Assembly: GCA_002683785.1 (NCBI GenBank)
Contig: NYUB01000088.1
Location: 5,160-61,339, forward strand
Length of the DNA stretch: 56,180 bases
DNA from: Deltaproteobacteria bacterium
GTDB taxonomy: Bacteria > SAR324 > NAC60-12
Reading direction: 5' to 3'
Within the stretch, counting starts at the first letter, position 1. Each line of letters begins with the position of its first letter. Position numbers and translations under genes: made by a program. Under the pieces are notes generated by a model. The model saw only the letters and a list, made by a program, of their open reading frames with translations, had not been told where the DNA came from and made no database searches. Below are positions 4,223 through 46,938 of this stretch, piece after piece.

Positions 4223-4509
4223 ATATGTCAGGAACGCTGAATCCCTGAATCCATCAGGACTTTCCAGTCCCGGTGAATCAAGGCCAGCGAACCTCGGATG
4301 GACATGGAAGATCCGTCTGTCGAAGACATTCGCTGCAGTCTCTTGCCTTGGCAAAAGACCAGACGCTGAACTGTTTTCGAAGTCATATAAACCAGGCTTC
4401 CCTGAAGGAGGGTGCTTGCGTAAGGCACGGAGCAGGAGTATGCTGAACCGGATGCCGGAATGCAGACACTGATTCCGGAAACGAAGCCAATCAGCCTAAA
4501 GAGGTGGTT

Positions 4510-4800
4510 ATGAAGGTCACAGGCCAACAACCCGCAGTGCTCCAGGACATTAAAGGAGGACAGCGGAAAGAAGCTGATCAGGCCCATCTCAAAGATGGAC
4601 CACCATCAGCAGATGATTCGGTGAAGACTACGTCTTTCGCCATGGATAAGTTGAAACTCCGCATTTCCGCGGAACCTGAAGTACGCTCTGAGAAGGTCGC
4701 CGAGCTCAAGGCCCAGATCAAGAGTGGTGAATACCAGGTAGATCCCCAGAAGCTGGCAGGCAACATGTTGCTTGACTCTCTTCGGGAGGACACCGTTTGA
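4510..4800 (+). CDS. flgM: Anti-sigma-28 factor FlgM
   Basis: FlgM binds and holds sigma-28 until the hook is complete, then is exported through the flagellar secretion apparatus. The 96-residue product has the family layout: a polar, disordered N-terminal half and a helical C-terminal half (SEKVAELKAQIKSGEYQVD followed by KLAGNMLLDSLRE), the sigma-binding segment. ATG 4510 sits 5 nt after a GAGG ribosome site; a GTG at 4504 is also in frame but overlaps that site. The sigma-28 promoter about 290 bp upstream gives the expected feedback loop. Confidence 0.9.
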   Translation: MKVTGQQPAVLQDIKGGQRKEADQAHLKDGPPSADDSVKTTSFAMDKLKLRISAEPEVRSEKVAELKAQIKSGEYQVDPQKLAGNMLLDSLREDTV

Positions 4801-8467: not shown

Positions 8468-8525
8468 TCAGGCGCCCGTTTTACATGTGTTCAAAACGGT
8501 CTGCCTGACCATTTGCATCAGGCAG
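8468..8525 (+). promoter_or_regulatory. csrA leader with two mutually exclusive hairpins
   Basis: Hairpin A pairs TCAGGC (8468-8473) with GCCTGA (8503-8508) and CCGTTTT (8476-8482) with AAAACGG (8493-8499). Hairpin B pairs CTGCCTGA (8501-8508) with TCAGGCAG (8518-8525) and ends 4 nt before the csrA ATG at 8530. Both use the same GCCTGA, so only one can form. B would cover the csrA translation-initiation region and A would free it. This is read directly from complementarity; regulation is inferred. A GGA-containing site (ACCGGAG) just after the flgL stop is a possible CsrA-binding motif. Confidence 0.5.
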
Positions 8526-8529
8526 AAGA

Positions 8530-8754
8530 ATGCTGATACTGACAAGGAAGTCGGGTGAGAGCATCACGATTGGAGATGATGTCAAGATCACGGTCATCGA
8601 AGTCAAGGGCAAGCAAGTCCGGATTGGAATCGATGCACCAAGAAACTACATCATTCATCGTGAGGAAGTGTACATTCGTATTCAGGAAGAAAATAAACGA
8701 GCAGCAGAAAAAACCCCAGTCTCTTTGAAGGGATTCAAAGGTCTTTTCGGCTGA
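8530..8754 (+). CDS. csrA: Carbon storage / flagellin translation regulator CsrA
   Basis: A 74-residue RNA-binding protein that starts [20 protein letters not shown] and carries the second binding strand VRIGIDAP and IIHREEVY. These are the beta-1 and beta-5 strands with the conserved Arg residues that contact GGA motifs in mRNA leaders. The C-terminal tail ([20 protein letters not shown]) is longer than the 61-residue E. coli protein. It lies directly upstream of fliW, the arrangement in which FliW binds CsrA and flagellin in a partner switch controlling flagellin translation. No consensus Shine-Dalgarno sequence is present; the start may be masked by hairpin B. Confidence 0.95.
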
Positions 8755-43872: not shown

Positions 43873-45717
43873 TCAGAGGTATCCTGAAGCCTGGAGGCTG
43901 AACAGTTCGGCATATTGACCTCCTTGTTTCAGCAGTTCTTCGTGCGGGCCATCTTCCAGCAAGGTACCTTCATGGAGTACGAGGATGCGGTCCGCCATCC
44001 TTACGGTCGAGAAGCGGTGGGAGATGAGTACCGCGCATTTGCCTTCGGTCAGTTCCACAAAACGGTTGAAGATCTGGTGTTCGGCACGTGCATCCAAAGC
44101 AGCAGTGGGTTCGTCGAGGATCAACAACTCGGCGTCTCGCATGTAGGCCCTTGCCAGTGCGATTTTCTGCCACTCACCTCCAGAAAGGTTGGTGCCTTTA
44201 CGGAACCAGCGTCCGATTCGCTGCTCGTAACCTTCAGGCAGGCGTTCGATAACCCGATCAGCAAGACTGCGTCTTGCAGACTCGGCAATCCGTTCATGGT
44301 CATCCATGGCTTCGATCCGGCCAACGGCAATATTCTCGGACGCAGTCAGATGGTATCGAACGAAATCCTGAAAAATAACTCCCACTGCATGGCGCAATTC
44401 TTTGAGATCATAATCACGAAGATCCCTGCCGTCGAGCAGGATTCGCCCTTTGCTTGGATCATGCAGGCGTGTGAGCAGTTTGACCAGAGTGGTTTTGCCC
44501 GCACCGTTTTCTCCAACCAACGCCAGTTTTTCCTGGGGACCCAACCTGAAGGAAACATTCCTAAGTACTGATTGATCACTGTTTGGATAATGAAAACTGA
44601 CGTTTTCGAAGACAAATCCCTCACGGACAGGTTTTGGAAAGGGAAGTGCTCCAGACTTTGAACGGATATCCGGTTGGAGGCTGAAAAAATCAAAAAGGTC
44701 CCTGAGATGAAGAGCACTTTCAGCTATAGAAGAAAAACGGTTGAGCACACTTTCCATCAGAGTACGCATACGCAGGAAGGAACCCGAGAGGAATGTCAGA
44801 TCGCCCAAACTCAATTGCCCATGTACCGTCTGGAAGATGATGACGGCAAACGCCGTGTAGTATCCGATGCTGCCCAGCAGGGAAAGCCCTCCGCCCCAGG
44901 CGGCCCGCCTTAGGGTAAGGGAGCGATTGGCTGAGTAATAATCCCAGGCCAGTTTGCGGTAACGGTCCTTGAGGAAATCTGCGAGTCCAAAGATCTTCAC
45001 CTCCTTTGCGGTTTCGTCACTGGCTCCGGCATAACGCAGGTAATCCAACTCGCGGCGTTCCTCCGTCCATCCATACATCAGGGAATAGCTCTGTCCGGTG
45101 AAATGCGTCTCTCCCAGAAACGCTGGGATTAACGCCACCGCAAGCAGCATCAGAAGCCATGGATTGAATGCAATCAGTGCCAGAGATAAGGTGACCACCG
45201 TCATCAGATCCTGGATCTGATTTAGGCTTTGAGACATGAGCAAAATACGGTTGGAAGCTTGACGGCGGGCACGTTCCAGCTTGTCGTAGAATTCAGCATC
45301 CTCAAAATGAGCGATGTCCAGCTTGGTTGCATGGTCCATCAGACGTAGAGAGATGTCGTGGGAAACCAAGTCGCCCAGCAGGCTGTCTGCCACGGCGATC
45401 CCGCGCCCGATGAGGTCTGTCGATGCGGCCAGACCCAGCTCGATCAGAACCAGTATTCCGACTCGTTCGAAATCTGGCTCGCTGGCCGAGGTCAGAAAGA
45501 CGACTTCATCGATGATCAGCTTGCCTAGGTAAAGCATGCCCAAGGGAAGTAATGCCCGAAGGCTCCGTAAACCTGCGTTCATGGCACTGAGAACAGGACT
45601 GCATTCCCAGATCAGATGGAAAAAACTAGGCAGATTTCGAAGCGCCTGAAGGCGTTCAGAAAGGCTTAACTGCTGTGGTTCAGAATGGACTCCACCTTGT
45701 TTTTTGCTGACAGCCAC
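43873..45717 (-). CDS. ABC exporter, fused permease-ATPase (MsbA-like half transporter)
   Basis: A 614-residue half-transporter. The first 330 residues form a six-helix exporter domain (LRALLPLGMLYLGKLIIDEV; LMTVVTLSLALIAFNPWLLM and LLAVALIPAF). The ATPase domain has Walker A LVGENGAGKTTLVK (near residue 390), Q-loop VIFQDFVRYH, signature NLSGGEWQKIALAR, Walker B ELLILDEPTAALD and switch His ISHRFS. It would work as a homodimer exporting lipids, drugs or peptides; nothing in context gives the substrate. It lies 108 bp beyond the flavoprotein start. Confidence 0.88.
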   Translation of the reverse strand: MAVSKKQGGVHSEPQQLSLSERLQALRNLPSFFHLIWECSPVLSAMNAGLRSLRALLPLGMLYLGKLIIDEVVFLTSASEPDFERVGILVLIELGLAASTDLIGRGIAVADSLLGDLVSHDISLRLMDHATKLDIAHFEDAEFYDKLERARRQASNRILLMSQSLNQIQDLMTVVTLSLALIAFNPWLLMLLAVALIPAFLGETHFTGQSYSLMYGWTEERRELDYLRYAGASDETAKEVKIFGLADFLKDRYRKLAWDYYSANRSLTLRRAAWGGGLSLLGSIGYYTAFAVIIFQTVHGQLSLGDLTFLSGSFLRMRTLMESVLNRFSSIAESALHLRDLFDFFSLQPDIRSKSGALPFPKPVREGFVFENVSFHYPNSDQSVLRNVSFRLGPQEKLALVGENGAGKTTLVKLLTRLHDPSKGRILLDGRDLRDYDLKELRHAVGVIFQDFVRYHLTASENIAVGRIEAMDDHERIAESARRSLADRVIERLPEGYEQRIGRWFRKGTNLSGGEWQKIALARAYMRDAELLILDEPTAALDARAEHQIFNRFVELTEGKCAVLISHRFSTVRMADRILVLHEGTLLEDGPHEELLKQGGQYAELFSLQASGYL

Positions 45718-45813
45718 GGATAAGAAAATAGAAGGGGTTCTCTTGAAGTGAATCAGTCTTTCACAAGAAAACCAGTCATTATATAAGCGATTAAAACATC
45801 ATATAATCATAGC

Positions 45814-45968
45814 AGAGGATCTTCGTGCTTGCTGAAGAAATGCCCCAGGGTTGACGATACCCTTGACGCAGGAACTGCGAAGTCCTATGATGTTCTTGTG
45901 GTGCCAAACCGACCATGATGTTGAAAAAAGGCTGTTCTGAGTGATGCTTCAGGACAGCCTTTTTTTTT
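45814..45968 (+). ncRNA. Candidate small structured RNA or leader upstream of the EamA gene
   Basis: Between the divergent ABC exporter and EamA genes (309-bp gap) there is no ORF, yet a complete transcription unit is visible: TATAAT at 45802-45807 with a weak -35 (TTATAT, 17-nt spacing), then about 155 nt ending in a strong intrinsic terminator. Internal hairpins include AGGGT/ACCCT (around 45848-45862) and a stem with a GCGA tetraloop (around 45871-45885). It could be a free small RNA or a terminator-controlled leader (riboswitch-like) for the EamA transporter, which starts about 60 bp after the T-run. No known riboswitch consensus was recognised. Confidence 0.4.
45927..45968 (+). terminator. 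Strong intrinsic terminator
   Basis: A 14-bp stem (45927-45940 with 45949-45962, one G-T pair) with an 8-nt loop is followed by a run of T to 45968. It lies on the + strand where no protein gene ends, so it must serve an RNA or attenuate transcription into the downstream transporter gene. Confidence 0.85.
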
Positions 45969-46026: not shown

Positions 46027-46938
46027 TTGCACTTTCCCCCTTACCTCCTGGTTCCTCTGTTCATCATCGGGGGAGGATTGTATGCCATTCCATACCAGAT
46101 CAGTCTTAAGACGATGGATCTGATGAGTGCTGTCTGTGGCGTCTTTCTTTTTGCACTCATTTTTTCAGTTCCCGGAGCCTGGATTCATCGTGCAAACATA
46201 GTCTTGGGCAAAAAAACCCTACTAGGTATTGTTGCGGTGGCCCTGTTTGGAATTGCAGGAAACTATGCCCTATGCCGTGCGCTGGAAGAAAGCTCGGCTA
46301 CCCTTTTTATGGTGATTGCCCGTACTGAAATCGTGATGGCCATGATCCTTGGGTGGTTGTTTTTACACGAAAGGGTATCCCTTCGTTTATGGATCGGAGT
46401 GATGCTGGTGATGGTTGGGGTGACGGTAATGAAATCGGAAGGGTTGAGCATTCCCACCGATAGCTTGTTTCCAGTCCTCTGGGCTTTTGGATGTGCACTA
46501 GCCTTTGCCCTGATCCAGGTGATTTCCAAGGCCATCATCCATTTGGTGGATCCCCAGGTACTCAATGTGAGTCGACTGGTTATTGCGACTTTCCTCCTTT
46601 TGCTTTCAACGGAGATTCGGAATGACCTCGAAGGGCTTACATTTTCAGAATGGAGCATGCTTGGGATGGCGGCTTTTTTTGGCCCTTTCATGGGCCGTGT
46701 TGCCTACACCTATGCGCTGAAACACATAACCATCGCCAAAGCCATGCTGCTCGGAATGTTTTCCCCATTGCTGACCCTGATGCTCGAATACCTGATATAC
46801 GGAACAATGATCAGTCCATCAGAAATGGGAGGATCGGCAATAATCATCCTTGGCATTCTTTGGTCTTTCCTGCCTTCACTGGTGAATAATTCCTACAGAT
46901 CGGTACCCCCCACTCCTGAAGATAGAAGGCCCGATTGA
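46027..46938 (+). CDS. EamA/DMT-family transporter
   Basis: A 303-residue protein with ten predicted hydrophobic segments arranged as two EamA repeats. The first repeat has FGIAGNYALCRALEESSATL followed by FMVIARTEIVMAMILGWLFL and HERVSLRLWIGVMLVMVGV; the second has GRVAYTYALKHITIAKAMLL and PLLTLMLEYLIYG. These drug/metabolite-transporter proteins export metabolites such as amino acids. TTG 46027 is used because the first membrane helix begins there; no ATG lies before it. A terminator-bearing leader precedes it. Substrate unknown; amino-acid efflux would fit the neighbourhood. Confidence 0.8.
   Translation: MHFPPYLLVPLFIIGGGLYAIPYQISLKTMDLMSAVCGVFLFALIFSVPGAWIHRANIVLGKKTLLGIVAVALFGIAGNYALCRALEESSATLFMVIARTEIVMAMILGWLFLHERVSLRLWIGVMLVMVGVTVMKSEGLSIPTDSLFPVLWAFGCALAFALIQVISKAIIHLVDPQVLNVSRLVIATFLLLLSTEIRNDLEGLTFSEWSMLGMAAFFGPFMGRVAYTYALKHITIAKAMLLGMFSPLLTLMLEYLIYGTMISPSEMGGSAIIILGILWSFLPSLVNNSYRSVPPTPEDRRPD

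Follow-up and report, generated by a model that had tools for sequence, protein, structure and literature searches.

A candidate small-RNA gene conserved between two species of a SAR324 genus, located between divergent transporter genes

The window analysed in this study, a stretch of 56,180 nt from the SAR324 clade (its own genome 87% complete), contains an intergenic segment between two divergent transporter genes. The earlier note had proposed for this segment an orphan promoter-terminator unit of about 155 nt, which would give either a small RNA or a riboswitch-like leader. Which of these the segment encodes, and where the transcript begins and ends, was addressed mainly by comparison with the sole congener compared, the MAG 'SAR324 cluster bacterium lautmerah10' (LNZD02000054.1; G001). 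The features discussed are collected in Table 1.

The gene upstream of the segment, coding for an MsbA-like ABC exporter, was on the opposite strand, confirming that no co-directional gene precedes the proposed unit. Downstream was eamA, which codes for a transporter of the EamA family. Both flanking genes and their order were kept in lautmerah10 (the ABC exporter at 87% identity and eamA at 73%), and several kb around the element were syntenic between the two genomes. The segment contained no long ORF, as had been claimed; the only possible one was very short. The TTG start of eamA apparently lacked a Shine-Dalgarno sequence, and several other genes of the window also lacked a clear one.

Table 1. 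Features of the locus, in window coordinates.
Feature	Position	Strand	Basis or remark
TATAAT of the earlier note	45802–45807	+	Not conserved; not taken as the promoter of the unit
−35 hexamer TTGACG (TTGACC in lautmerah10)	45863–45868	+	Motif match and conservation, 5/6 identical
−10 hexamer TATGAT	45886–45891	+	6/6 identical in lautmerah10
Candidate small RNA, about 71 nt	45898–45968	+	69/71 identical in lautmerah10; fold z −5.4 and −5.7
5' hairpin GUGGU-GCCAAACCG-ACCAU (ACCAC in the relative)	45898–45916	+	Same predicted fold in both species; also a DNA dyad
Linker GAUGUU, ahead of the A-run forming the terminator base	45917–45922	+	6/6 identical
Rho-independent terminator, 19 pairs, 6-nt loop, T9	45923–45968	+	Stem and T9 shared by both species
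Possible very short ORF MMLKKGCSE*	45915–45944	+	Starts one codon later in the relative, MLKKGCSE*
eamA, EamA-family (DMT) transporter gene	46027–46938	+	PF00892, E 3e-35; TTG start
ABC exporter, MsbA-like fused permease/ATPase, divergent	43873–45717	−	PF00005; best NCBIfam TIGR02203, below cut-off

The TATAAT taken by the earlier note as the start signal was present; the + strand of the 56 kb has only one other. The sequence around it (45795–45813) was 37% identical in lautmerah10, which did not support its role as the promoter of the unit. The 5' half of the claimed unit (45814–45862) was not conserved either (47%), both values being those of ordinary intergenic drift. The whole segment gave a fold z of −3.7, and this signal came from the terminator. 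With the terminator removed, 45813–45922 folded no better than its shuffles (z = −0.46), so that a structured transcript of some 155 nt was not borne out.

The strong terminator with its T-run was confirmed on the + strand, with about 14 pairs in the core and 19 when the A-U pairs were counted. The terminator sequence was nearly palindromic and had a T6 run on the − strand; it could terminate transcription in both directions.

Between 45898 and the last T of the terminator, the two species were 97% identical, and identity dropped to 36% past the T-run. Identity was 98–100% in the linker and in both the stem and the 6-nt loop of the terminator. For comparison, the surrounding coding sequence was about 75% identical, and the aligned genomes 75–81%. 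Among all the 71-nt intervals in the roughly 30 kb over which the two genomes were aligned, 45898–45968 tied for second. The equally conserved intervals outside the large ORFs (4504–4735 and 8515–8700) fell in or over flgM-like and csrA genes. Since these rivals sit in or over small genes, 45898–45968 was the most conserved truly intergenic stretch in the aligned sequence. The FlgM-like ORF (4504–4800) and the CsrA gene (8530–8754) appeared to belong to a flagellar gene cluster, and both showed unusually high conservation between the congeners.

Upstream of the conserved stretch, a promoter of the form TTGACG-17-TATGAT (45863–45891) was predicted, matching the consensus at 10 of the 12 positions of the two hexamers. 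The spacing was 17 nt in both species, whereas the spacer itself was only 41% identical. In the discriminator after the −10 hexamer, two of six positions were identical. The promoter scan by itself was not above chance (2 sites found against 2.5 expected). The hexamers, kept exactly 17 nt apart while the sequence between them was not conserved, gave the appearance of a working promoter, and the conservation ending sharply at the last T gave that of a terminated transcript. We interpreted these to delimit a unit of about 45863–45968, with a predicted RNA of about 45898–45968. The start was placed by promoter spacing (7 nt after the −10 hexamer) and the end at the last T of the T-run. This start lies 84 bases later than claimed. 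Within these boundaries, the conserved promoter, RNA and terminator together would form a discrete unit, and the candidate small RNA of the earlier note stood.

The predicted fold of the RNA was the same in both species: a hairpin of 5 bp closing a 9-nt loop, then a 6-nt linker, then the 19-pair terminator. The fold z-scores of both species came mostly from the terminator. The RNAs differed at only two positions, U to C at 45916 (G-U to G-C) and A to G at 45956 (U-A to U-G). Both changes preserve the pairs and are consistent with the predicted structure, two sequences being no proof of covariation.

The 5' hairpin may also be read at the level of DNA, as a dyad GTGGT-N9-ACCAC at +1 to +19, which in the relative is a perfect 5+5 inverted repeat from the inferred +1. 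A repressor might bind this dyad as an operator, with the hairpin downstream being just a terminator and the RNA having no function. We regard such an operator as improbable, because it would leave unexplained why the linker and the stem and 6-nt loop of the terminator are conserved.

It is very unlikely, too, that the promoter and terminator are kept with no functional product, whether as a decoy start from which eamA is insulated or with the hairpin retained only as a terminator. Terminators are common, and a search of both genomes for sequences nearly matching the complement of the loop region gave no excess over a control pattern and indicated no target. On the other hand, the high identity of the RNA, loops and linker included, against 36–47% in the flanks implies constraint beyond the terminator. 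The conservation in sequence of the loop, the linker and the terminator loop suggested a contact made by sequence.

With moderate confidence, we favor a short, self-contained gene for a small RNA, restricted to this SAR324 genus. As looked for in intergenic small RNAs, the candidate has a predicted promoter of its own, an intrinsic terminator at the 3' end and an RNA sequence conserved above its flanks. Transcription would start near G45898 from a sigma-70-type promoter, and RNA polymerase would synthesize a 71-nt RNA, comprising the 5' hairpin, the short linker and the strong intrinsic terminator, before stopping at the T-run. The finished RNA would be the product. The conserved loop and linker are probably its functional contact, through base pairing or with a protein, in a presumed trans-acting role. 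By its position, the terminator would insulate eamA, which would receive only read-through from upstream.

The usual partners of trans-acting small RNAs are Hfq and ProQ. Hfq (PF17209) was not detected in 11 genomes (the own genome of the window, lautmerah10 and nine others of the family and order), and ProQ (PF04352) was not detected in seven; the positive controls were detected in both cases. These genomes appear to lack both chaperones, the own genome being only 87% complete. CsrA was encoded in the window, while Hfq and ProQ were undetected, and control after transcription in this clade may depend on other proteins.

The terminator was placed by the earlier note about 60 bp ahead of eamA, and the distance measured from the T-run to the start codon was 59 bp. 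The unit and eamA are on the same strand, and eamA lies close downstream in lautmerah10 as well. The promoter scan found no promoter-like site between the terminator and the eamA start codon, and transcription of the + strand from upstream must therefore cross the terminator. This arrangement is also that of an attenuator leader, in which the conserved promoter would be the promoter of eamA, and the terminator would stop most transcripts until a signal permitted read-through. The signal might be a ribosome translating the short ORF (8–9 codons), a protein or a small pseudoknot, making the attenuator pyrBI-type or protein-controlled. The short ORF was intact in both species, overlapped the 5' arm of the terminator, and had its stop codon within the terminator loop. 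Both differences between the RNAs fell outside the shared MLKKGCSE* frame, one just before the shared start and the other past the stop.

However, none of the RNA prefixes gave a fold able to compete with the terminator; until its stem closes, their energies are about −5 to −10 kcal/mol. The short ORF could be there by chance. No Shine-Dalgarno sequence was seen ahead of it, a weak point, few genes of the window showing a clear one. With several kb syntenic, the kept order of the genes carried no independent weight. The eamA orthologs of other genera lacked the element. An attenuator is the main rival of the small-RNA reading, and we consider it possible but rather unlikely; the small-RNA unit may in addition attenuate eamA.

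A riboswitch leader had been suggested by the earlier note from the association of EamA exporters with riboswitches. The association itself has a basis, EamA-annotated genes being under the control of ykkC subtype 2d RNAs (PMC7266159), but no match to ykkC or another class was found here. A search of Rfam over the window gave no match at the gathering thresholds, and up to E = 10 the matches of the region were attributable to chance; most covered the terminator and none was to a riboswitch. The would-be aptamer (45814–45890) was mostly unconserved, with nothing conserved in 45814–45885 apart from the promoter hexamers. Only about 25 nt lie between the conserved start and the terminator, and no antiterminator fold was found. 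By inspection only, and from two invariant sequences, the loop GCC could pair with the GGC after the A-run at the terminator base, as in preQ1-I pseudoknots. A riboswitch leader for the exporter, whether ykkC-2d-like or a small H-type pseudoknot aptamer of this kind, is very unlikely.

The same parts could make up a minimal class of regulatory RNA, in which the 19-nt hairpin and linker, through a pseudoknot or a ribosome on the short ORF, would control the eamA terminator. We think this quite unlikely. If true, it would mean a 71-nt leader regulating an EamA exporter in a clade with no detectable Hfq or ProQ.

How far the candidate small-RNA gene extends among relatives was examined at several levels. 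The conservation expected by the earlier note was found within the genus (in lautmerah10), and none was found beyond it. In other SAR324 genomes the core was not found by BLAST, by a pattern search with 3 mismatches, or with a covariance model. Weak BLAST matches in other members of the family lay in contexts unlike that of the element and were set aside. Across 52 genomes of the class, the sole full-length match of the covariance model outside the genus (G043, 32.8 bits) was a terminator without the 5' loop, just downstream of a gene resembling that of elongation factor G. A weaker match (G011) covered the terminator only.

An exact search of GTDB genomes for the core returned only lautmerah10 and one contig of an Aquabacterium MAG, about one chance match being expected by our estimate. 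The latter (L057, 6287–6312) was near-exact to the 5' hairpin and linker over about 24 nt, had no terminator, and looked like a chance match. None was found in IMG/VR.

Orthologs in other genera were 31–49% identical for eamA and mostly 65–75% for the ABC exporter, and they had different neighbors. The element was absent from the inspected regions upstream of these orthologs, in which the covariance model gave nothing above noise. The arrangement ABC-RNA-eamA looks specific to the genus, and the element appears, as far as these data go, to be restricted to it. In another genus of the family (L083–L095), the divergent neighbor of the ABC exporter was a different gene, not eamA.

Judged from its sequence, the object is of an ordinary kind, a small RNA or an attenuator, and is real, bounded and conserved, in a little-studied clade. 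A limited search of the literature turned up no report of small RNAs in SAR324. A well-bounded, conserved candidate RNA with its promoter offers a concrete entry to RNA-based regulation in SAR324, and the corrected boundaries point reads or reporters at the right 71 nt.

Among known systems, the orphan ykkC subtype 2d shares with the element the position upstream of an EamA-annotated gene, but the element has no ykkC match and its RNA is far too short. The pyrBI leader is a translation-coupled attenuator. Attenuators of this type likewise have a terminator between promoter and gene and a short ORF overlapping the 5' arm of the terminator; the ORF here, unlike that of pyrBI, has only 8–9 codons and no Shine-Dalgarno sequence. 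The best match in Rfam by E-value, STnc390 (RF02056), reached 20 bits against a gathering threshold of 50 and covered essentially the terminator only. 6S RNA (RF00013) is also a stand-alone small RNA, but it was found elsewhere in the own genome (C143, 97 bits).

The closest likeness of the candidate is to the intergenic small RNAs with an intrinsic terminator. It differs from these in general by having no Rfam family, and by the clade in which it occurs, where Hfq and ProQ were undetected. It shares with them a sigma-70-like promoter, a 5' hairpin, a short linker and a terminator with a long U-tail, in a block of about 71 nt conserved between divergent flanks.
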